DNA from: Blautia sp.
Lineage (GTDB): Bacteria; Bacillota; Clostridia; Lachnospirales; Lachnospiraceae
Reading direction: 5' to 3'
DNA: 64,000 bases
NCBI GenBank assembly: GCA_029257805.1
Contig: JARIAR010000057.1
Span: forward strand, 1 to 64,000
Part shown: positions 1,543 to 14,311 of the stretch, in pieces
Layout: each line of letters opens with the position of its first letter
How positions within the stretch are numbered: the stretch's first letter is position 1
The notes under the pieces: generated by a model
Seen by the model: the letters and a program-made list of their open reading frames with translations, nothing else
The model's database searches: none
What the model was told of the DNA's origin: nothing
Position numbers and translations under genes: made by a program

Positions 1543-2073
1543 TTATTCTTTATATAATCTGGACATTTCCCGTTCTAGCCACTTCTTTGTCCGAAAGATA
1601 CGATTGTTTATACCATTTCTTGTAAGACCGTATTCCTTCGCAACAATATCCGGAGAAATGTCCAGATATTTTACTTTCATTAAAATATCATAATTCATGG
1701 GATTTTCCGCTCGCAATTTTTGTAGAACCAGTTTTATATACTCTTTTGCCTCCATATGTAAGATTTCTGCTTCTATATTGCAACGTTTATCAATCAGATA
1801 ATCTTCCATTTCTTCATCTTCCGCAATAAATTCCCTCTTTGCATGCCCATGTTTACAATAATCCAGTGCTTTATTAATAGTTGCTTTTTTTACAAGTCCA
1901 TACAGCTTTTCTTCTTCGTGGAAGTTCAGATTTTGTTCTATTTTATATAAACTATAAAATACTTCCTGAACAATATCCTGTGCTGCATCCATATCATCGA
2001 CAATTTTGTTTGCAATTTTCAGGGAGAATCCAAAGTATTTCTTATAAAATTCTTTAAAATTAGTACTTTTCAT
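1543..2073 (-). CDS. ECF-like RNA polymerase sigma-70 family factor
   Basis: Region-2-like DAAQDIVQEVFYSLYK and C-terminal HTH-like DIVAKEYGLTRNGINNRIFRTKKWLE. Confidence 0.75.
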   Translation of the reverse strand: MKSTNFKEFYKKYFGFSLKIANKIVDDMDAAQDIVQEVFYSLYKIEQNLNFHEEEKLYGLVKKATINKALDYCKHGHAKREFIAEDEEMEDYLIDKRCNIEAEILHMEAKEYIKLVLQKLRAENPMNYDILMKVKYLDISPDIVAKEYGLTRNGINNRIFRTKKWLEREMSRLYKE

Positions 2074-2098
2074 CTCTCATTTTATCCTGCCCAAAGAT

Positions 2099-2509
2099 TT
2101 ACAAACAAGCTTTTACTTGTTCTAAAATTTCATCTCTTTCTTTCTCATCCAAAGAGCCAGGAACCCAGGAAAGCCCCACATTGTCCCCTTCATATCTGGG
2201 TATTAAATGAATATGAAAATGAAATACTGTCTGTCCTGCTGTTTCTCCATTGTTCTGAACAATATTAAATCCGTCACAATGCAGAGCCTTTGACATCGCA
2301 GCAGCCATTTTCTTTGCAAGGATCATTGCTTTTCCTACCATTTCATCTGTCATTTCATAAATATTTGCAGCATGCTTTTTAGGCAAAATCAATGCATGGC
2401 CTTTACTGGCAGGTCCCAGATCCAGAATCACTCTGAATTCTTCGTCCTCCCATAATGTAGCAGCCGGAATTTCCCCCTGTGCAATTTTACAAAAAATACA
2501 ATCTCCCAT
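2099..2509 (-). CDS. HIT (histidine triad) family protein
   Basis: CIFCKIAQGEIPA N-terminus and HFHIHLIPR triad. Confidence 0.92.
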   Translation of the reverse strand: MGDCIFCKIAQGEIPAATLWEDEEFRVILDLGPASKGHALILPKKHAANIYEMTDEMVGKAMILAKKMAAAMSKALHCDGFNIVQNNGETAGQTVFHFHIHLIPRYEGDNVGLSWVPGSLDEKERDEILEQVKACL

Positions 2510-2622
2510 TTCATATATCCTCCTTTTATTTTCTTTTTTTGTCGCAATTATGCGAACTCTTGAACACGATACTTATTGCTAATCAAATATAAGAATGCTA
2601 CACTTTTTTTGAGGTGATAATT

Positions 2623-3297
2623 ATGAAGATAAATGCCACAGCTCAGCAGATCAAAGAAGAATTTCAGTTTACGCTTTCTAAATTTTCCCATGAAATCCGT
2701 AATCCTGTTTCTTTAATTAACAGCGAGCTCCAGATGATGGCAAATACACATCCGGATGTTGTAACATATGAAAACTGGAACGATATTATGGATAATCTGG
2801 ACTATATCAAAGAACTGTTAAACGAACTTTCCAATTATAATAATGCAGGAAGTATTTCTCCTAAAGATACCGATATAACATCTTATTTACAAAATATTTT
2901 ATCCTCTATCCGGCCAACGCTGGATTATCTTAACATCACATTGGAATCGGATTTTCCTGCCTCTTTGCCAGTGATTTCTATTGATCGTCTTAAAATCCGG
3001 CAGGCACTTTTAAACCTTCTGCGAAATGCACAGGAATCTATTTCCCATCCAAATGGAAAAATTCTGGTAACTGCCGTTCCTTTTAAAAAGGGAGTCTGCA
3101 TTTCCGTTTCTGATAACGGATGTGGAATTCCCCCGGAAAAAACAACGGAAATTTTTAATCCCTTTGTAACTTTTAAAAGTACCGGAACGGGACTTGGACT
3201 TGCTGTCACAAGACAGATCATTGAAGCGCACCATGGTCATATTGAAATTGAAAGCCAACCGGATCATGGCTCCACATTTCGAATTTTTCTTGGATGA
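2623..3297 (+). CDS. Soluble orphan sensor histidine kinase (HisKA + HATPase_c)
   Basis: H-box FSHEIRNPV, N-box LLNLLRNAQES, G1/G2 DNGCGIPPE and GTGLGLAV; no TM helices; ATG at 2623 behind SD GAGGTGA (the ORF track starts at 2614). Confidence 0.85.
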   Translation: MKINATAQQIKEEFQFTLSKFSHEIRNPVSLINSELQMMANTHPDVVTYENWNDIMDNLDYIKELLNELSNYNNAGSISPKDTDITSYLQNILSSIRPTLDYLNITLESDFPASLPVISIDRLKIRQALLNLLRNAQESISHPNGKILVTAVPFKKGVCISVSDNGCGIPPEKTTEIFNPFVTFKSTGTGLGLAVTRQIIEAHHGHIEIESQPDHGSTFRIFLG

Positions 3298-3866
3298 TAC
3301 AAAATAACAGAAAGGAAAAATCCAGCGATCAAACCACCAATATGAGCCGCATTATCCACTCCATCACTTACAATTCCTAAATAGACAGAGAAAACAGCCA
3401 TGATTATAATCTGTTTTGCTGATAAGTCTTCTACCTTTCCTTTATCGTGTAAAACAATATAAATCATGGCTCCCATTACTGCAAATACCGCACCGGAAGC
3501 GCCTGCGGAAACTGCATATTCCTGCCCCTTTATTTCCATAAATAAAGAAAGAAGATTTCCACCTATGCCCCCCATAAGATAAAGTATAAGAAATTTACCC
3601 TTTCCCAAAACTTTTTCCATTCGTTGGCCCAGGGCAAATAAGACCAGCATATTGTTGACAAGATGTTCTATGCCAAAATGCAAAAACATGCACGTGAAAA
3701 GACGATAAATCTGTCCCTGTTCCATAATAAAAGGTGTATAAGCAGCGCCCCATCGAATCATATTTTGTGTATCCAAGGAGCCTCCGTTTAAATCTACTAC
3801 CAGGAATATCAGGACATTCATTAAAATCAGAATCACTGTAACCGGTTCTTTTCTCAGTTCCTCCAA
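3264..3866 (-). CDS. Rhomboid family intramembrane serine protease
   Basis: GASGAVFAVMG catalytic Ser motif, AHIGGLIAGF catalytic His, multi-TM; likely TTG start. Confidence 0.88.
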   Translation of the reverse strand: MEELRKEPVTVILILMNVLIFLVVDLNGGSLDTQNMIRWGAAYTPFIMEQGQIYRLFTCMFLHFGIEHLVNNMLVLFALGQRMEKVLGKGKFLILYLMGGIGGNLLSLFMEIKGQEYAVSAGASGAVFAVMGAMIYIVLHDKGKVEDLSAKQIIIMAVFSVYLGIVSDGVDNAAHIGGLIAGFFLSVILYHPRKIRNVEP

Positions 3867-3965
3867 AAGCAGCCTCTTCTCTTTTTCTGTTATACAGAAA
3901 AATTTTATTCACCACATTAATTATGTTAATTTTAGTATAACAGATTTTTTCTCAAATACAAAGTT

Positions 3966-5288
3966 TTATTTCAAAAACACATAGCGTGCCTGCGCAAAAT
4001 CCACTTCATCTTCATGTTGTAAATGATAGTCTTCCCCTTCCTGAAGAAGTCTTCCGTTTACAGTTGTCCCATTTCTTGAATTCAAGTCACTTAAATAATA
4101 TTCATTTTCCTGCCTTCGTATTTTTGCATGAATACGACTGACTGTAGGAAGATCAATCACGGCATCTACCGCTGTTTCCATCTTTCCAATTACCGTTATT
4201 TCTTCCTGTAAATAAATCGCTGCCAGTTCTCCTGGTTCCCGGCTTACAAGAGTTGCCGGACCTTCTACTGTATTTGCAGACAATACAACCGTCTCTCCAA
4301 AATCCCTTTTTTCTGTTTGTTCTACCTTCACAAATTTCTTTTGTTTACGGTTCGTTTTCTCCTGCTCCACTTCTTTTTCCACAGGAATTTCCGACGCAAA
4401 ATCTATTGGATTTTTCCTTTTTCTCAAAACAAACGTGTATATTTTATACGCCAACATTCCTATTCCACCGGCTGCAACCATCGCTAACATCACTATTTTA
4501 ACCTGAATTTCAGGAAGATATCCGAAAAATCCGGCTGCAAGAATCAAGAAAAACCCCAGCGCGCCCAAAAGACAGAATGCTATTTTTTTCCATAGTACAT
4601 ATCGCTCTTTTTCTTCTTCTTTTTCCTCACAATCCCTAAAAAAATCTACTTTTTCTTCCTGCATTTTTTCTTCAAAAAATAATTCCTGACACTGTTTTTT
4701 TTCATTGAAAACTACATTTTCCTGCTTCTCTGTCGAGACTTCTTCTCTTTCTTTATAAATTTCTTCTTTGATATATTCTAAATGAAACGTACCTTCCAAT
4801 GTCCGTCTATATACTCCATAACCTAATATCACTGCCTCTTCCTCTTCATGATCAATCTGAGGAAGTATATATTCCGTAAAAATCCGAAACTGTTCTTTAA
4901 TGTCTTCGTTTTTTCCCGGCATACAGCAAAAATATAATTTCTTCTTTTCCACATCTAAGTACATATACTCCGGTTGCAGAAGAAGCTGTCCGGGATTCAT
5001 CAGATATTCCTCCATTTCTTCTATCGTCTGGATGATCCCGCCTAAAATAAGGCGCAAATCTTCTGCTCTAAATTTTTTCTGTTCATATAAAGAAATAACA
5101 GACTGCCTGGAAGTAATGTCATAATAAAGCATAAACTGCCCATCTATTCCCTGAATGCGGCATTTCAAAAGAGAAGGCACCGCATTTCCAAGCAGCATTC
5201 TTACCTGGTACGAATCGGTATCCAATTGCTCATCTCCATATAAAATCAGATAATTGTGATTCATATCTCTCTTATACTCTGTTCTCAT
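3966..5288 (-). CDS. FHA domain-containing membrane protein (N-terminal DUF6382-like)
   Basis: C-terminal FHA signature LPTVSRIHAKIRR..YYLSDLNSRNGTTVNG; central TM segments. Confidence 0.85.
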   Translation of the reverse strand: MRTEYKRDMNHNYLILYGDEQLDTDSYQVRMLLGNAVPSLLKCRIQGIDGQFMLYYDITSRQSVISLYEQKKFRAEDLRLILGGIIQTIEEMEEYLMNPGQLLLQPEYMYLDVEKKKLYFCCMPGKNEDIKEQFRIFTEYILPQIDHEEEEAVILGYGVYRRTLEGTFHLEYIKEEIYKEREEVSTEKQENVVFNEKKQCQELFFEEKMQEEKVDFFRDCEEKEEEKERYVLWKKIAFCLLGALGFFLILAAGFFGYLPEIQVKIVMLAMVAAGGIGMLAYKIYTFVLRKRKNPIDFASEIPVEKEVEQEKTNRKQKKFVKVEQTEKRDFGETVVLSANTVEGPATLVSREPGELAAIYLQEEITVIGKMETAVDAVIDLPTVSRIHAKIRRQENEYYLSDLNSRNGTTVNGRLLQEGEDYHLQHEDEVDFAQARYVFLK

Positions 5289-5290
5289 TT

Positions 5291-5716
5291 TTATCCTCCA
5301 ATTTCTCCCAGTATATTTGACGCTGCTTTTATTTTCCGTATCCAGCCCACAGGACGAATTATTCTGGATTTTCCTTCTGCACGAAGATGCCAGGATAGTC
5401 CTGTATATTCAGCAATGGTATCCTCATCATATATCACTTGAACATCTTTTCCTGCCTTAACATGTAAAGAGAGGTTTTCAGCTCCAAAAAAGCCAGACGA
5501 TCCCAGACCTTCGCCTTTCCTTTGTGCAGTTTCATATACGCTTCCATTTTCCCATATCCCTTCCATCGCCCCGCTTATTGCAGATTCATATGCTGCAGCT
5601 GTAAGCCAGACACGATTATGTACAAAAAAGCACAAATACAAAAGTCCCATCAAAGTAAACAGGATCAGCGGCATTACACATGCTGCCTCCACCGTAAAGC
5701 TTCCTTTCTTTATCAT
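5291..5716 (-). CDS. TadE-like pseudopilin
   Basis: MIKKGSFTVEAACVMPLILFTLMGLLYLCFF: class III signal (G/SFTVE) plus hydrophobic helix. Confidence 0.78.
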   Translation of the reverse strand: MIKKGSFTVEAACVMPLILFTLMGLLYLCFFVHNRVWLTAAAYESAISGAMEGIWENGSVYETAQRKGEGLGSSGFFGAENLSLHVKAGKDVQVIYDEDTIAEYTGLSWHLRAEGKSRIIRPVGWIRKIKAASNILGEIGG

Positions 5717-6135
5717 AAAAAAAGACCTCCTATGTATCCAAAAAACAAATATGGAATAAACGGGATTCTTGTTTTTTTCCCTTTATGACGCACCACCACA
5801 AGATAACCTGCTGATACAGCACATCCCAATAATCCAAGTATAAGGGAAAGGATCAATTGTTCCCATTTCAGTATTGTTCCCAGTGCCAAAATAACAAGAC
5901 CATCCCCCATGCCGATTTCACCACCTGTAAGAAAACTGACTCCGATTACGCACAACCCCATTGCCACTCCCAGCAAGTATAGAGGATTAATAAGACCGTC
6001 ATGCCATGCCCACAAAAAACCTACAATTCCTACAACTCCTGTTGTCCAAAGAGAAATCTGCTGTTTCTTCCAATCCGTCCACGCATTTATCCCAAGAAAA
6101 ACTAAAGCCACTACATTTAACCACATCGTCCACAC
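5713..6135 (-). CDS. A24 family prepilin peptidase (second copy in locus)
   Basis: AWTDWKKQQI and GGEIGMGDGLVILALG catalytic Asp motifs; multi-TM. Confidence 0.8.
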   Translation of the reverse strand: MWTMWLNVVALVFLGINAWTDWKKQQISLWTTGVVGIVGFLWAWHDGLINPLYLLGVAMGLCVIGVSFLTGGEIGMGDGLVILALGTILKWEQLILSLILGLLGCAVSAGYLVVVRHKGKKTRIPFIPYLFFGYIGGLFL

Positions 6136-6989
6136 GCTCCCATTCCTTTCGCATCTGATTCTTTTATCATTCGCACCGTTCTTTTTAAGCCGCTACAGCT
6201 TCCTGTATTATGATATCGGTTGCTTTTCCCTGTTATAAAAACCACCCCTGCCGGTTTCTGATTTCTGCTGCAAATTTCACATGCTGTGTACTTTTCTCCA
6301 TACTGATTTTTTCTACTCTCAATAGAGGCACCCGATACCTGTTCAATGGAAAGATTCAGGTAACTGCAGTTTATATTTTTGTGATATACGTTTCCCGATT
6401 CTGTTACATACACCATCTTCTCTGTATCACTTCCCTGATTCTGATCAACCAAAGAAGAGGGTGCTTTTCCTGTCCATCCATGGACCTTCACTGTATTATG
6501 CATCCAGATTTTGGGAAGCGGAATCAATCCTCCTACCGGTTCATATGCATACACATCCGGAAGAATAATATTTTCCATCCCTCCTCCATCCGGTTCATAT
6601 GCATACATTCCTGCTTCTTTGGCTTTTTGGCAAAGCAAAGTAAGATGCTCTGTCTGTATCTTGTATATATCCATAAAAGAAATCAAAGTGACAATTCCCA
6701 TAAAAAATAGAGGAAGGACAAGCGCTGTTTCCACTGCCAGACTGGCAGCCTTTGCCATTTTCAAAAAGGTGCAAAAAGACACTTTTCCAGAAAGTCTGCC
6801 TTTACATATCGGGGAATGCAAAAGCGTTCTTTTCTTTAGAGAGCGTACCCTTTCTTTTAAATTTTTTTCTGCTGCTTTTATGCGGTGTTTTTTCTCTTGT
6901 ATATATAGCATATTTTCTTTATTTTCCATTTTATCCAGCCTGTCTGTCTGTACTTTATACACCTTGATTTTTACTTTCTGAAAAAGCAT
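6117..6989 (-). CDS. TadE-like protein with duplicated C-terminal H-C...CxxC (Ada-like metal-binding) motifs
   Basis: AASLAVETALVLPLFFMGIVTLISF pseudopilin helix; tandem VYHKNINCSYL...CEIC and RYHNTGSCSGL...CGRC. Confidence 0.65.
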   Translation of the reverse strand: MLFQKVKIKVYKVQTDRLDKMENKENMLYIQEKKHRIKAAEKNLKERVRSLKKRTLLHSPICKGRLSGKVSFCTFLKMAKAASLAVETALVLPLFFMGIVTLISFMDIYKIQTEHLTLLCQKAKEAGMYAYEPDGGGMENIILPDVYAYEPVGGLIPLPKIWMHNTVKVHGWTGKAPSSLVDQNQGSDTEKMVYVTESGNVYHKNINCSYLNLSIEQVSGASIESRKNQYGEKYTACEICSRNQKPAGVVFITGKSNRYHNTGSCSGLKRTVRMIKESDAKGMGACGRCG

Positions 6990-7027
6990 CTTTTTGCACC
7001 TCTTTTCCTATGCTCTTCTTTTACAAC

Positions 7028-8503
7028 CTAATCATATCCATATGCTCTTGTTACATTAAAAATCTTTCTCTTATTAGCTTTCACATCCACAGAAACTTCT
7101 ATGGCAACAATACAGGAATCCAGGCAAAAATTTCTCCGCCCTTTCTCCCTGATGGACATCTCTATCATATCCATACCGCGCATAAGCTTTTTTTCTTTTC
7201 CGGCAGACAAAAGCAGAATCTGAAGATAATCTTCGTAAGCAATCCCATTTTCACTTCCCCTTCTGGCAGAATCCAATCCTTCCAGAAGTTTCGGAAGATT
7301 TTCCAGGGAAAGCTGCCAGTCTGCACCTGATTTCATTAATGGAACCTTTCCACCTGCAAATAGCTCTCTTACATCCAAAATGCTTTCTCCAAATGCCCAG
7401 CAGAAAAGAAGCGCCGCTTCAATCACTCCAGAAGCCGGAGGAATCAGAAAAGAAGATGCAATAGCCATGGCAAGACTTCCTGCCTGGGCACGTTTTCCAT
7501 AATCTCCCGCTAAAAAGGCAAGATTCACTCCTTCTCGAATAAGCAAAAGCCGCTTTGCCACAAACTTAAGATTCTCTATATCATCTGCTTTTCCTCCCAG
7601 AATATATTCGATCTGATACTTCAATCCCCCGGCTCCCGGTTTCTTGTAATTTCCCAATTTATCCATTAGATATTGCTGAAAAAGTATACCGGAAGAGTAA
7701 GTCTCATCTTTTTTTAGACCATTTCCCATAGGCATTCCCTGCTGCTTCCTTCTCTTAGATAAAAATTCACTGCCCTGTGCTTTTCCACTGGATACCTGTA
7801 CATTACCAGGTATTACCAGTTCCAAAATTCCCATTTTTCGAATTCTTCGTATAATACTGATGGGATTTACTACCTTTTTAGGAGGAACAGCGGCTTCCAC
7901 ATGTCCGTCTTCCAGAGTTCCACCTTCCGGGGTTTTTTCTGCTTCTGCCATAGCTTCTTGATTTTTTCTATTTGTTTCTTCCATTTCTACATCATAATGA
8001 TGTATCACATCACCATTTTCAGCATTTTGTCCTTCTTTTTCAGCCTCATCTGTTTTCTCTTTTCTTTGTTTCATTTTATTCAGAAGAAGGTTCACCCCCT
8101 GGCTTCCAAGGGTCTCTTTCATATATCGTACTACCTGTTGATAAAAAGCTTCTCCATTTTCGTCTGTAAGCAGACGATACCCTGTAAATCCACCCTGTAC
8201 AACGGAAAGTTTTTGACTGTTTTGTTTTAAAACAGGCTTCATATAAGAAGAAAAATTATCGTAAATATCTGCAAATCCAATCTGACCCTGACCACAAGAA
8301 CCATCCAAAAGAAATAAATCATAGTCTTTTAATATTTCTTTATCGTATTGACCAAATAATGAATATAATCCGATATCTACGCTATTTAAAATTTGTGTTC
8401 TGGCTGCCGCCATTCTTACCGATTCAATCCCTGTACAAACCAAAGAAACAATAAGGCTTAAAATCAGGGCAAGAAACACGGTTATACTTCCTCGTCGTGC
8501 CAT
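7028..8503 (-). CDS. DUF5702-like Tad-locus protein
   Basis: MARRGSITVFLALILSLIVSLVCTGIESVRMAAART class-III-like N-terminus; long surface-protein-like body; position in Tad cluster. Confidence 0.65.
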   Translation of the reverse strand: MARRGSITVFLALILSLIVSLVCTGIESVRMAAARTQILNSVDIGLYSLFGQYDKEILKDYDLFLLDGSCGQGQIGFADIYDNFSSYMKPVLKQNSQKLSVVQGGFTGYRLLTDENGEAFYQQVVRYMKETLGSQGVNLLLNKMKQRKEKTDEAEKEGQNAENGDVIHHYDVEMEETNRKNQEAMAEAEKTPEGGTLEDGHVEAAVPPKKVVNPISIIRRIRKMGILELVIPGNVQVSSGKAQGSEFLSKRRKQQGMPMGNGLKKDETYSSGILFQQYLMDKLGNYKKPGAGGLKYQIEYILGGKADDIENLKFVAKRLLLIREGVNLAFLAGDYGKRAQAGSLAMAIASSFLIPPASGVIEAALLFCWAFGESILDVRELFAGGKVPLMKSGADWQLSLENLPKLLEGLDSARRGSENGIAYEDYLQILLLSAGKEKKLMRGMDMIEMSIREKGRRNFCLDSCIVAIEVSVDVKANKRKIFNVTRAYGYD

Positions 8504-8532: not shown

Positions 8533-8712
8533 TTAAATAGAATTGCTTTGTTTTGCAATTTTAGCCAGAATGCTCTTTACAAGCCTTGTAAGCTGATCTT
8601 TAAATATAATTACAAGACCGATCAGCACAACCAGTATTAAAATAATTTCTACAACACCAACTGCATCCTCTTCTCTTAAAAATGCTTTCGTCAGCTTTCG
8701 TAATCCTCGCAT
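8533..8712 (-). CDS. Flp-type major pilin-like small protein
   Basis: 59 aa MRGLRKLTKAFLREEDAVGVVEIILILVVLIGLVIIFKDQLTRLVKSILAKIAKQSNSI; SD GGAGGTG upstream; the 111-aa ORF in the track extends too far upstream. Confidence 0.78.
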   Translation of the reverse strand: MRGLRKLTKAFLREEDAVGVVEIILILVVLIGLVIIFKDQLTRLVKSILAKIAKQSNSI

Positions 8713-8729
8713 TTTTCCACCTCCTTTCG

Positions 8730-9758
8730 TCACCCTCCGTAAAAGGTCAGACAGGCAGGTATCATAATAACTGCCATAACTACAAGAAGCATAAGAACCA
8801 TAGGGCCAAGAAGTTTTGTAGCTGCCGCTTCTCCAAGTACTCTTGCTTTTCGCTTCCGCTCTTCCCAAGCTTCTATTGATTCCCTTTCCAACATATCTTC
8901 CAAATGCCTGCTTCCCTTTTGAAGATTTTGTATCAACAGCGTGGCAAATGTTTTATATTTCACCTGTCCGCACCGTTCTCCAAAATGTCTGTACGCCTCA
9001 CTTTCTGAAACACCACTATCCAGTTCATAACAGATAACAAGAATTTCCTCATAGACATACTTCTTTTTATCCATTTTCCTTCTTTTATAATCCACTGCCA
9101 TTTTCTCAAAAGCTTTTCTAGCAGTCATACCTGCCTGCACAAGAAGCGTAAATTTCATGATTACTCCAGGGTAATCCATAAGCATCTGTTCCCTACGCTT
9201 CTGCTCCAGAGTAAATTCTTCTCTTCCTTTCAGGATAAAAACAGCAATGGCTGCTACAAGAAACAATGCTGAAAATACAGCTCCAGAATGGTTGCCCGGC
9301 TGCTCCCATTCTAAATGTTTCCCCTTCCATTCACCTGGGAGGTAATAATAATCTTCATCTGCTTTTTTCTGATTATATTGCATGATCGTTTCCTGCAATT
9401 CGTTTAAATAAGCAGCTTCCGGCGAAATTTTTTCTTCTGTCTCCATTTCTGTATTCTGCTGTGTTTCTTTTTGCGGAATCTGCACATATATTGTTTCCGG
9501 TTTGCTTCCATCTACAGAAACCAAGAACTTTTCTTCATATGGTCCTTCTTCTTTTTTCATGGAATGACCATTGGAATAAATTTTATTGCCGCCGCTTTGA
9601 AATGTAAGAACTGCTCCCAGAATATTCCCACATAGGGCTACCATCACAAAAAGCCGCCTGCCCTGCTGATTTTTTTTCTTTTCTACTCCAAACCACTGAA
9701 ATTTCCAGCCTAGAGCCACGATAACGATCATGACAAACAAAATAATATGCAACCACAT
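8730..9758 (-). CDS. TadC-like type II secretion F domain inner-membrane protein
   Basis: MDYPGVIMKFTLLVQAGMTARKAFEKM...YEEILVICYELDSGVSESEAYRHFGERC; start MWLHIILF behind GGAGCG. Confidence 0.78.
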   Translation of the reverse strand: MWLHIILFVMIVIVALGWKFQWFGVEKKKNQQGRRLFVMVALCGNILGAVLTFQSGGNKIYSNGHSMKKEEGPYEEKFLVSVDGSKPETIYVQIPQKETQQNTEMETEEKISPEAAYLNELQETIMQYNQKKADEDYYYLPGEWKGKHLEWEQPGNHSGAVFSALFLVAAIAVFILKGREEFTLEQKRREQMLMDYPGVIMKFTLLVQAGMTARKAFEKMAVDYKRRKMDKKKYVYEEILVICYELDSGVSESEAYRHFGERCGQVKYKTFATLLIQNLQKGSRHLEDMLERESIEAWEERKRKARVLGEAAATKLLGPMVLMLLVVMAVIMIPACLTFYGG

Positions 9759-9769
9759 TCTTTTCGCTC

Positions 9770-10540
9770 CTAAACTTCTATATCTACAATTCTTGTTCCC
9801 ATCCAATATGCAAATATATAAATTCCAAAACATACAGTCATTGCACAGACACCAAAAGGATTCCCATACAAAGTACTTAAAAATCCAGGAGAAGTAATCT
9901 TCAAATATGCAATGATCCCTGCCGGCATAAAACTCATAATCCTTTGCTCTGATTTTTTTGCCGCCAATGTTGCTTCAATTTCTTTTTTAACGTCAATTTT
10001 ATCTCCCAGCATCCTTGCCACTTTTTGAATTACGTTTCCCATATCGCCACCTGTACGCTTCGCTGTATAAAAAACAGCCGCAAAATTTTCAATGTCTTCT
10101 ACGCCACTTCTTTCACCAAAATCAAAAAACAACTCTTCAATTGGAACACTTACTTTTTGCTGACTTTCCATATAATGAAATTCCCGAACAATATCCGCAT
10201 CCGAAGCATACAAGCGTTCCAGATCTCTGGTGCAGGAGCACACTGCATTTTCCACGGAATAACCAGCCTGCACTGCTACGCTCATCGCATTTAATGCATC
10301 TCGAAACTGATAATTCAGTTGTTTTTTCCTTTCCCGGATACATTGCTGCTTCTTCCATTTCATAAATATAAGGGGAAACGGAATCATCAAAAGAAGTACC
10401 CATGGCGACTCATAAAAAAGATAATCTGCCACAAAACAAAGCATTACACATTCTCCCAGATATTTTAAAAATTCTTTTCCTGAAAAATGATATTCGCCAT
10501 AATTCTTTTTTATATTTCCTGTTTTTTCTTTCTTTTTCAT
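9770..10540 (-). CDS. TadB-like type II secretion F domain protein
   Basis: FRDALNAMSVAVQAGYSVENAV...FGERSGVEDIENFAAVFYTAKRTGGDMGNVIQKVA. Confidence 0.82.
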   Translation of the reverse strand: MKKKEKTGNIKKNYGEYHFSGKEFLKYLGECVMLCFVADYLFYESPWVLLLMIPFPLIFMKWKKQQCIRERKKQLNYQFRDALNAMSVAVQAGYSVENAVCSCTRDLERLYASDADIVREFHYMESQQKVSVPIEELFFDFGERSGVEDIENFAAVFYTAKRTGGDMGNVIQKVARMLGDKIDVKKEIEATLAAKKSEQRIMSFMPAGIIAYLKITSPGFLSTLYGNPFGVCAMTVCFGIYIFAYWMGTRIVDIEV

Positions 10541-11727
10541 AATGCAAGCCCTGCCCTTTCCAGCTTTTCTTTACGCAAAAGGGAAGATATCTGTACAAGC
10601 CCTTTTCCCTCCTGCCACTGATAAAGCACATTTGTTTTAATTTCACCGGCCTGAAATCCACATACTTCTGTAATTTCCAAAACTTTTCTGGATTTATCTC
10701 TCATTCTCCCAAGGTGAATAAGAATATCCACTCCCGAAGAAATCTGCCGCCGTATGGCTTCCAACGGAAGATCCACTCCCATCAGTATCATGGTTTCAAG
10801 ACGACTTAACATATCCAGACTGCTATTTGCATGTGCTGTACTTAAACTCCCTTCATGACCGGTATTTAATGCCTGCAGCATATCTACTGCTTCACCGCCT
10901 CGTACTTCTCCTACCACAATGCGATCCGGTCTCATGCGAAGAGCTGATTTAATCAAATCTCTTATAGAGATTCCTCCGCTTCCTTCTCTGTTTGGTGCCT
11001 TCGCTTCAAGGCATACAAGATTTTCGATTCCCTGAATTTTTAATTCTGCATTATCTTCTATCGTAATCACTCTCTCGTCCTTGGGGATATATTCAGAAAG
11101 CGCTCCCAGAAAAGTCGTTTTCCCGCTTCCGGTTCCGCCTCCTATGATCATAGAATACCGTGCCTGTACAAGAGTCGCCAAAAATTCTGCACACTCCTTG
11201 GAAAGACTCCCAAGAGAAATCAATCGTTCCATAGTGATCGGTACATCCGGAAAACGTCGTATCGTCAAAATCGGTCCGTTTAAAGCCACCGGATGAATAA
11301 CCGCATTTACACGTGCCCCGTTTTCCAAACGTGCATCTACAATCGGCATAGATTCATTTACAACTCTGTTGCATTTCCCCACAATCTGCTGTATCACATC
11401 TTCCAGTTTGTCTTTAGAAGTAAAAGTTTTCTCCCATCGTGTCAGTTTTCCTCCTCTTTCTATAAAAATAGCCCCAGGACCATTTACCATGATTTCCGTA
11501 ACCGTTTCATCCTCTATCAGTTCCTGAAGTACATCCAGCTTCCGCACAGAATAAAAAAGTTCCTGACGAAGCTGTACTTTTTCTTTTAAAGTACAACAAA
11601 GATCTTCCGCATGATTTAAAATCAGGTTATCAATAATATCCAGGATCTCTTCATCCGAAAGCTCTCTTTCCAAATTCAGCTTTTCCATGAGCTTTCCACG
11701 AAGTTCCCGAAATATCTCTTTATTCAT
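10537..11727 (-). CDS. CpaF/TadA family secretion ATPase
   Basis: Walker A IIGGGTGSGKTTFLGAL, ERVITIEDNAEL, RPDRIVVGEVRGGEAVDMLQALNTGHEGSLSTAHANS. Confidence 0.95.
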   Translation of the reverse strand: MNKEIFRELRGKLMEKLNLERELSDEEILDIIDNLILNHAEDLCCTLKEKVQLRQELFYSVRKLDVLQELIEDETVTEIMVNGPGAIFIERGGKLTRWEKTFTSKDKLEDVIQQIVGKCNRVVNESMPIVDARLENGARVNAVIHPVALNGPILTIRRFPDVPITMERLISLGSLSKECAEFLATLVQARYSMIIGGGTGSGKTTFLGALSEYIPKDERVITIEDNAELKIQGIENLVCLEAKAPNREGSGGISIRDLIKSALRMRPDRIVVGEVRGGEAVDMLQALNTGHEGSLSTAHANSSLDMLSRLETMILMGVDLPLEAIRRQISSGVDILIHLGRMRDKSRKVLEITEVCGFQAGEIKTNVLYQWQEGKGLVQISSLLRKEKLERAGLAL

Positions 11728-12737
11728 TCTCTTTCCTTTCTTAAAATTTCCTTTACATAATCTCCCAGTTCACTCCATATCAAACGTTCTATATATGTTT
11801 CTCCGGAACAATTTTCCACATGAAAAGGCGGTTTGATTTTTGTTATTTTCGGCAAAATCTGCGAATAATCCCATATGCGCAGGAGATTTTCAAATTGTGC
11901 GATCTTACATACCGAAACCGAATCTGATAATACAGGCATATAAATTCTGCTGCACTTATCCAAAATCTGAAAAATCTCTTCCATCTCACTTCCAATATCT
12001 AAAATAACAATTTCATAAGAACTGCTGCGTATAATTTCTTCCAAAAGCTTATTCCAATCTTCCCATGCTGTTCCATGTATATCCCACGGTGTATGTACTG
12101 GGGGAATAAAATCCAGATTATGGATGGTCTGTATCATGCCATTCATTTTATGAATCAGATTCTGATTTCCCTGACGCACATAATATAAAAGGTCACTTAA
12201 ATCATGGGAAAAACTTTTTCCAAAAAGCTCCTCAAACCCGGAGTACTCTTCAAAATTTAAATATAAAACCGCCTTTTCTTTTGCCAATATCTGTCCCATT
12301 GCCAGGGCAAATGAGGTTTTTAAACATCGTTTAAGAGGAGAATAAATTCCCACTATTTCGGTTGTCTTTTTTAACACCGGAAATGTTACAGATTCCACTG
12401 CCTTTTCCTCCCCATAACAGGACATAACCTCACGGATAACATCTGAAGAAGACTGGTACTTATATACGCTTGGATATTGATCCAGTTCAGGAGAATGCAC
12501 TCCTTCTGACAGAATCACGATTTTTCCAATATTCAATTCCCGAACTTCCCTGCACATTGCTTTTCCGGAAATTAACAGCAGCTCAATATGCGTCTTTTCC
12601 CCATATGCAATTAAACTGTTTACTGTTGTAAACGCCTGGATTTCAAAAGGAACATTCTTTTTCTGATTCAGATAATCCATAAAATTACAGGCATAATCTA
12701 CTTCCAGATCACAGACTGCAAAAATATTCTTCTTCAA
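11724..12737 (-). CDS. CpaE/TadZ-like protein with degenerate P-loop
   Basis: Position before cpaF; VGIYSPLKRCLKTSFALAMGQILA.. in place of a canonical KGGxGKT; TTG start behind GGAGGTG. Confidence 0.6.
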   Translation of the reverse strand: MKKNIFAVCDLEVDYACNFMDYLNQKKNVPFEIQAFTTVNSLIAYGEKTHIELLLISGKAMCREVRELNIGKIVILSEGVHSPELDQYPSVYKYQSSSDVIREVMSCYGEEKAVESVTFPVLKKTTEIVGIYSPLKRCLKTSFALAMGQILAKEKAVLYLNFEEYSGFEELFGKSFSHDLSDLLYYVRQGNQNLIHKMNGMIQTIHNLDFIPPVHTPWDIHGTAWEDWNKLLEEIIRSSSYEIVILDIGSEMEEIFQILDKCSRIYMPVLSDSVSVCKIAQFENLLRIWDYSQILPKITKIKPPFHVENCSGETYIERLIWSELGDYVKEILRKERE

Positions 12738-13246
12738 TAGACACCTCCCGCATATAAAACAACACTCATAAAAACAGGTATTGTAAAATGAAAATTTTCC
12801 GAGACTTCCATTCCCTTCCGATAATAAGGTTCTATTTCCCCTGTTCGGATACATTTGCTCACATACAGAAACAAATAATGAAATCGTTCATATATATTTC
12901 CGTTAGAAATTAGAATGGCCAAAGATATACATGCTCCAAAAATAAAAGAAACAAGAATGCATTTTGCAATGTTTTCCATTCCCATTATGCCGCCCAGCGC
13001 ACAAAAAAGTTTAATATCCCCCGGTCCCAGCATATGGAACAGAAAAAGAACGCCCAGACAAACTACAGGAAAAAGCATGCCTGACATAAATTTTAAAAAT
13101 ACATTTCCTCTTTCTGTTAAAATTCGGATCAGCAGTCCCACCACAATAGAAAATAAAATCCATCCATTATCTACTTTTGCTGTGCGCAAATCCATAATGA
13201 CAGCAACAGCCGCTATCGTAACGGGAAAGCAGATACGAAAAAACAT
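12734..13246 (-). CDS. A24 family prepilin peptidase (TadV/CpaA-like), first gene of Tad operon
   Basis: IMDLRTAKVDN and HMLGPGDIKLFCALGG catalytic motifs, TM helices. Confidence 0.85.
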   Translation of the reverse strand: MFFRICFPVTIAAVAVIMDLRTAKVDNGWILFSIVVGLLIRILTERGNVFLKFMSGMLFPVVCLGVLFLFHMLGPGDIKLFCALGGIMGMENIAKCILVSFIFGACISLAILISNGNIYERFHYLFLYVSKCIRTGEIEPYYRKGMEVSENFHFTIPVFMSVVLYAGGVY

Positions 13247-13382
13247 GGCATCACCTCGCTTTGCCTTTGTATTTTCTTACAGCTTTTGCAAAATATCATA
13301 CGTTTTCTCTTTTGTAAAAATAATTGGGATTTCTTCCGTCAGAATAGACGGGTTTGACACCAGAAGTCTTCTGGTAAGTTGT

Positions 13383-13440
13383 ATTATAGAACAATGTGTA
13401 CCTCTTGTCCAGAATTTTCCATCGACAAATTCCGACAAAT
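13383..13440 (-). promoter_or_regulatory. Putative sigmaA promoter of Tad operon (TGGACA-17-TATAAT) with tandem 0A-box-like repeats upstream
   Basis: Minus strand ATTTGTCGGA ATTTGTCGAT (13440-13421), -35 TGGACA (13411-13406), 17 nt, -10 TATAAT (13388-13383). Confidence 0.55.
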
Positions 13441-13540: not shown

Positions 13541-14311
13541 ATGAATACAACAATTGAACAAATAGAAGATATGTCCCTGAATGCCTGGCCATCACATAAA
13601 ATGGAGCTTTATGACGGATGGATCCTGCGGTTTTCATACTTTTACACCCACCGCACAAACAGTGTAGAACAATTCGGAGTTTCCTCCCTTCCTTGGAGAG
13701 AAAAAATACCTTATTGCGAAAATGTTTATAAACGTCTGGGAACTCCGGCCATTTTCAAAATTAGCCCCCTTATTTCTCCGGATTTCGATTATATTTTGGA
13801 AAACAGAGGCTATTCCATTGAACATACTACTAATGTAATGACAATCGACTTAAAAAATACTTCCTCTTTTTCCTCTGCTCTTTGTCCGGATGTTCAATTT
13901 ACAACAACCATTCCTTCTTTCTGGATCCAATCATTGCTGAAATTAAAGCATACTACAAATCCTCTTCACCAGAAAGTCGTACCCTCCATGTATCAGGCAA
14001 TCTTAAAAGAAACTATTTGTGCTTCCATAACCAAAAACGGAGAGATTATTGGTACAGGTCTTGGTATCTTGGACCGTGATTATATCGGCATCTATGCAAT
14101 TCATGTAAGAGAGGATTTTCGCAAACAGGGATATGCCAGACAAATTTGTACCGGCTTATTAAAAAAAGGCAAAGAACTTGGAGCACAAAATGCGTATTTA
14201 CAGGTAGTGAACCATAATTTTTCTGCTCAAAACCTGTACCGTTCTTTGGGCTTTAAAAAGCTTTACACCTATTGGTTCCGTACACAGCCAAGTTTTCCCC
14301 AATCTGTATAA
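13541..14311 (+). CDS. GNAT family N-acetyltransferase
   Basis: YIGIYAIHVREDFRKQGYARQICTGLLKKGKELGAQNAYLQVVNHNFSAQNLYRSLGFKKLYTYWF. Confidence 0.88.
   Translation: MNTTIEQIEDMSLNAWPSHKMELYDGWILRFSYFYTHRTNSVEQFGVSSLPWREKIPYCENVYKRLGTPAIFKISPLISPDFDYILENRGYSIEHTTNVMTIDLKNTSSFSSALCPDVQFTTTIPSFWIQSLLKLKHTTNPLHQKVVPSMYQAILKETICASITKNGEIIGTGLGILDRDYIGIYAIHVREDFRKQGYARQICTGLLKKGKELGAQNAYLQVVNHNFSAQNLYRSLGFKKLYTYWFRTQPSFPQSV

Follow-up and report, generated by a model that had tools for sequence, protein, structure and literature searches.

Putative Spo0A boxes and a conserved two-hairpin leader RNA at the Tad/Flp pilus promoter of Blautia

The window, that is, the whole 64-kb stretch of DNA analyzed here, comes from a Blautia genome of 2.6 Mb and contains a promoter followed by a full Tad/Flp locus of about 9 kb. 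The operon starts with the gene of a TadV-like prepilin peptidase and continues with genes encoding a TadZ/CpaE-position protein, the TadA/CpaF-like ATPase, two TadB/TadC-like membrane proteins, a Flp1-like prepilin and several further proteins (Table 1). The TadZ/CpaE-position protein was assigned by its place in the operon, as it has no match in Pfam or NCBIfam, and it served as the query for locating tad loci in other genomes. The gene divergent to tadV (13541-14311, plus strand) encodes a GNAT acetyltransferase, and adjoins the locus or lies near it in many relatives.

The initial annotation had placed a soluble orphan histidine kinase on the far side of the tad locus, and this gene is real, with HisKA and HATPase domains. 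It is kept beside tad in six of the examined relatives (G048, G004, G066, G075, G079, G078) and is a member of a conserved gene neighbourhood at tad. In clostridia, orphan kinases are reported to affect sporulation initiation (PMC11210211). Near the kinase gene and a gene for a HIT protein there is a gene encoding a small ECF-like sigma factor (1543-2073, minus strand), which keeps its synteny with tad in several relatives.

Table 1. Features of the tad locus and its promoter in the 64-kb window
Feature	Position	Strand	Evidence or remark
Upstream 0A-like box core, TGTCGGA	13431..13437	-	1 mismatch vs TGTCGAA; centre 23 nt before -35
27-bp element fitting the spo0A-promoter matrix	13411..13437	-	12.55 bits, rank 1 in the window
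Downstream 0A-like box core, TGTCGAT	13421..13427	-	1 mismatch; centre 13 nt before -35
-35 hexamer, TGGACA	13406..13411	-	recurs across the genus
-10 hexamer, TATAAT	13383..13388	-	recurs across the genus
Conserved 5' leader RNA	13316..13382	-	covariance model R1, 63 bits, E 1.5e-15
Leader hairpin 1, ACCAGAAGACTTCTGGT	13359..13375	-	98.8% of cells paired; 3 pairs changed on both sides
Leader hairpin 2, CCGTC-TATTCT-GACGG	13336..13351	-	97.6% of cells paired; 4 pairs changed on both sides
Single-stranded conserved motif, AATCCCAAT	13323..13331	-	genus consensus AATCCCATTTT / AATTCCACTTTT; TTTCC in other genera
Prepilin peptidase, TadV-like (first gene of the operon)	12734..13246	-	PF01478
TadZ/CpaE-position protein, 376 aa	11724..12854	-	position
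TadA/CpaF-like ATPase	10537..11727	-	PF00437
TadB/TadC-like membrane proteins, two (T2SSF)	8730..10540	-	PF00482 x2
Flp1-like prepilin	8533..8868	-	PF16982
DUF5702, 290-aa unnamed protein, second prepilin peptidase, TadE-like, DUF6382-FHA	3966..8503	-	
Soluble histidine kinase, 227 aa, beyond the distal end of tad	2614..3297	+	HisKA + HATPase

Two direct repeats, ATTTGTCGGA (13440-13431) and ATTTGTCGAT (13430-13421), lie on the minus strand upstream of TGGACA and TATAAT separated by a 17-nt spacer, exactly as the initial annotation had described them, in a 10-bp register. Each repeat contains an imperfect 0A-like core, and the two cores are exactly 10 bp apart. At the offset of the upstream box relatives G011 and G059 carry the exact TGTCGAA, and at the offset of the downstream box the exact core is found in G004, G005, G016, G049 and G072. 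In both boxes of the window the nucleotides G2, C4 and G5, which are the bases of the 0A core contacted by Spo0A (PMC3485338), are retained, and the single mismatch falls elsewhere. Moreover, the tandem TTTGTCGNNNTTTGTCG has one copy in the 2.6-Mb genome at 0 or 1 mismatch, and this copy is perfect.

The conservation of the repeats was analyzed in the regions upstream of the orthologous operon across 64 genus genomes; the TadZ-position gene is present in 56. In nearly all of the 56 genomes tadV was located as the first gene, and the TGGACA-17-TATAAT promoter was recognizable in most of them; the arrangement recurring across the genus is TGGACA, 17-18 nt, TATAAT. Boxes were counted within 110 nt before the -35 element in 51 tad promoter regions, with 300 dinucleotide-shuffle trials as a control. 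The exact TGTCGAA is present in 21 regions of 51 (shuffle mean 1.1, maximum 4), and pairs of boxes with at most one mismatch exactly 10 bp apart are present in 10 regions, compared with 0.04 expected; since the species are related, these counts and the corresponding p-values should not be read as independent probabilities. Among all 630 permutations of its own letters TGTCGAA is the most common in these regions, the runner-up reaching 9. Thus the repeats, which the initial annotation had expected to recur at orthologous promoters, are conserved in much of the genus.

The boxes are also phased relative to the promoter. The addition of four distant tad operons in which tadA comes first brings the set to 55 regions, 40 of which have a box with at most one mismatch. 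The 35 exact boxes are centred approximately at -13/-15, -23/-24, -34, -43/-44, -52/-54, -64 and -74 from the first base of the -35 element, which corresponds to a 10-bp period (R = 0.905). Orientation and number of the boxes vary by clade, from forward pairs and single reverse boxes to arrays of up to four, so that the helical phase is preserved and the sites are not simply inherited; this pattern suggests repeated gain of boxes at one helical phase. About a quarter of the examined genus promoters (G048, G017, G061, G010, G021 and others) have no recognizable box, although spo0A is present in nearly all genomes of the genus.

The putative regulator is encoded in the studied genome, as its assignment to Spo0A presupposes: the spo0A gene product scores 354 bits with TIGR02875 (cut-off 200). 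Its DNA-binding domain is very close to PDB 1lq1, with one substitution in the recognition-helix region TTPSRVERAIRHAIEVAW, and Spo0A_C matches are found in 63 of the 64 genus genomes. Other sporulation genes are present as well (sigE-spoIIGA, the spoIIA-sigF operon, and sigG- and sigK-like genes). The genome also encodes a lone Spo0A DNA-binding domain of 114 aa with no receiver (L002:1489-1833, G000:C49:141460-141762), downstream of an hsp90-like gene, and most genomes of the genus encode a stand-alone Spo0A_C protein of this kind.

The spo0A promoters of many Blautia carry the same tandem element as tad, e.g. TGTCGAATCCGGACGAACGAAAATGC in G024, and the studied genome has the tandem GGTCGAAACAAATCGAACGAAAG at its own spo0A promoter. 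Spo0A of C. difficile binds the same core and also its own promoter (PMC3485338). A weight matrix of 27 bp was trained on 27 spo0A promoters of other Blautia, the own genome being excluded, and scanned over the window and selected loci. It yields 31 bits on the spo0A promoter of the studied genome. In the window the best match is the tad site (12.55 bits), followed by a site inside the tad operon (12.31 bits) that looks like chance; as the margin is small, the evidence here is the top rank at a site named beforehand. At the same offset of the tad promoters of G004, G005, G016, G049 and G072 the matrix yields 24-25 bits, and these scores are the more independent part of the evidence, since the tad site had been chosen for its resemblance to 0A boxes. 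The spoIIGA promoter of the studied genome has a weak AGTCGAA only, and thus some expected Spo0A targets lack a good box.

Tandems of a similar kind, TGTCGRA-N3-TGTCGRA, occur several times per genome in the distant members G051, G002, G069, G003, G067 and G018. There are 69 matches listed over the genus, with far fewer matches of the reversed control pattern, and they form a ready set of candidate Spo0A targets.

Outside Blautia the promoters of tad loci in the family have similar -35 and -10 elements, while the exact 0A box is found in 2 of 68 loci, and hence the Spo0A wiring of tad looks lineage-specific, probably gained in the Blautia lineage. The tad promoters of other genera often contain a ATTCACAAA-like element about 40 nt before the -35 element (L244-L311; noticed by eye), and box-less Blautia promoters often have AGTTTATAGTTTTTTTAGAA in a similar place. 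These elements are possibly sites for other regulators or UP elements.

Directly downstream of the -10 element there is a conserved leader, with two hairpins and the single-stranded motif AATCCCATTTT / AATTCCACTTTT common to 36 genus promoters. The initial annotation had noted its first part as a start-site palindrome at 13374-13358. The palindrome is present with the described sequence, one base away from that location, and it is more than an operator, being hairpin 1 of a conserved RNA with compensatory changes; the second hairpin was described correctly. In the alignment of 41 leader sequences 98.2% of cells are in standard pairs and seven of the 11 pairs have two-sided changes, while in controls with slid partners pairing falls to 25-49%. 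Insertions in the leader respect the stems: in G056 a large insertion into the loop of hairpin 1 itself lengthens the stem, and in G041 and G022 an extra hairpin has been gained, shifting hairpin 1 about 30 nt downstream.

The covariance model of the leader has a match in 50 of the 64 genus genomes, with essentially one strong copy in each, located at tad; further matches in the same genomes are weak, at noise level and without a promoter. In G003, G069, G074 and G050 the leader lies ahead of a tad operon in which tadA is close to the start and no tadV was found alongside, and hence it follows the operon rather than a single gene. Searches against Rfam gave no bacterial leader family at E-values up to 5 for the window region and up to 0.5 for eight relatives. 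The predicted leader RNA is a strongly supported motif absent from Rfam.

The full model rarely matches outside the genus. Still, in other genera a hairpin closely followed by TTCC or TCCC is found in 24 of 61 tad leaders (1.3 in shuffles); hairpin 2 and UUCC persist there, and hairpin 1 is often lost. In G575, for instance, hairpin 2 and the motif are kept before tadV. Thus, a reduced form of the leader is found repeatedly at tad promoters in the family. In G213, from another genus, the tad-type leader with its -10 element (L156:4208-4270) precedes a gene encoding a 757-aa membrane coiled-coil protein (1897-4170) and not tad.

The distance from the leader to the first start codon varies among the genus leaders from about 76 to 222 nt, which makes direct masking of the ribosome-binding site unlikely and favours effects on stability, elongation or protein binding. 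Pairing of UCCC with the Shine-Dalgarno region or with GG of hairpin 2 is inconsistent in minimum-energy folds of the genus leaders. Inspection by eye rules out an intrinsic terminator at hairpin 2, given its 5-bp stem and a T-run about 10 nt away.

Several other explanations of these elements can be considered. TTTGTCGRW sites taken singly are about as frequent in the window as expected by chance (3 observed, 2.2 expected), and the repeats, lying in an AT-rich promoter region, might accordingly be neutral or have arisen by chance; this is very improbable given the enrichment over shuffles, the phasing, and the rank obtained with the spo0A matrix. The repeats might also be bound by a different protein, either the receiver-less Spo0A_C paralogue, encoded in this genome and in most others of the genus, or a CtsR-like repressor, as the heptads of CtsR-type direct repeats are also spaced 10 bp apart. 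We consider this unlikely: in the lone Spo0A_C protein of the studied genome the recognition-helix region is altered (SRVERAIRH to MNVEHNIRT), position 5 of the core is G, as in 0A boxes, whereas CtsR sites have A, and the core fits the spo0A promoter element. Moreover, the boxes lie upstream of the -35 element and leave the promoter itself uncovered.

As for the leader, the palindrome is near-perfect and, in most promoters of the genus, covers the predicted start site, as would be expected if it were a DNA operator for a tad repressor and the RNA hairpin were incidental. This seems rather improbable, since both hairpins show compensatory two-sided changes, the insertion in G056 extends the stem, hairpin 1 is displaced in G041 and G022, and other genera keep hairpin 2 with UUCC, often without hairpin 1. 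The position of the leader hairpin, at the 5' terminus of a long operon for a surface structure, is also reminiscent of LoaP and RfaH systems; the leader would then serve an antiterminator of the NusG-paralogue type as its loading or processivity signal in the ~9-kb tad operon. However, there is a single NusG gene in this genome, as in most leader-bearing relatives (e.g. G004, G005, G049, G016, G063), and this largely refutes such antitermination, which we regard as extremely improbable; a non-NusG antiterminator acting on the tad leader is possible.

The best explanation of the whole, and in our opinion a probable one, is that Spo0A directly controls tad in Blautia, with the leader as a possible post-initiation layer. 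Putative Spo0A control of tad is well supported by the promoter comparison. Its likely direction is activation, as boxes upstream of the -35 element in helical register would allow for contact with RNA polymerase. On the other hand, the effects of 0A boxes at spo0A of B. subtilis are mainly repressive, and boxes downstream of a promoter can act there as roadblocks (PMC12090719), so the sign of tad control is uncertain. According to the proposed mechanism, Spo0A~P would bind the head-to-tail 0A boxes, which are separated by one helical turn and lie close to the -35 element on its upstream side, and would activate the sigma-A-type promoter on entry into the starvation/sporulation programme. Transcription would probably start a few bases past the -10 element, and the mRNA would open with a leader of about 60 nt, formed by the 5'-terminal hairpin, the second hairpin and the single-stranded UCCC/UUCC motif. 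The leader might affect mRNA stability or act as a protein- or ligand-operated switch. A bolder, tentative reading is that the leader with its UCCC/UUCC motif represents a new class of ligand- or protein-sensing regulatory RNA for Tad operons of Lachnospiraceae, to which Blautia would have added Spo0A control; if so, a single promoter would combine the decision to sporulate with a signal at the RNA level.

Blautia is an abundant genus of the human gut, and its Tad pili are likely attachment structures. The results suggest that building of the pilus is tied to the starvation and sporulation decision of the cell, in which case adhesion would be switched along with the starvation and sporulation programme. 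Among the papers listed by our literature search on Spo0A with Tad pili or Blautia, none reports a link between Spo0A and tad. The recurrence of the leader at tad promoters of the family, together with the 41-sequence alignment, makes it suitable for a new Rfam entry.

In the spoIIG/spoIIE type of B. subtilis promoters, head-to-tail boxes are placed one helical turn apart beside the sigma-A -35 element, and in spoIIG the spacer between -35 and -10 is longer than normal. The tad promoter is similar to these Spo0A-activated sigma-A promoters in the arrangement of boxes beside the -35 element and in the 0A-box core (PMC3485338), while it differs from spoIIG in its normal 17-nt spacer and in its target, a pilus operon. 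The tandem element of many Blautia spo0A promoters, roughly TGTCGAA-N4-GACGAACGAAAATGC, is the same as in tad, though the copies at tad deviate more from the consensus and only there does the two-hairpin leader come after the promoter. A structured RNA leader before pilus genes is also known for C. difficile pilA1, preceded by the c-di-GMP riboswitch Cdi-2-4 (PMC6200980). Unlike Cdi-2-4, the tad leader consists of two short hairpins only and has no Rfam riboswitch match, and thus it belongs to neither class (I or II) of c-di-GMP riboswitches. As in the LoaP and RfaH systems, the element heads a long operon, but this genome has no NusG paralogue. Finally, in Caulobacter the developmental master response regulator CtrA is reported to control the Flp pilin gene pilA (PMC11264516); the regulator and the phylum are unrelated to those considered here, and the likeness lies in a developmental master response regulator placed over a Tad/Flp gene.
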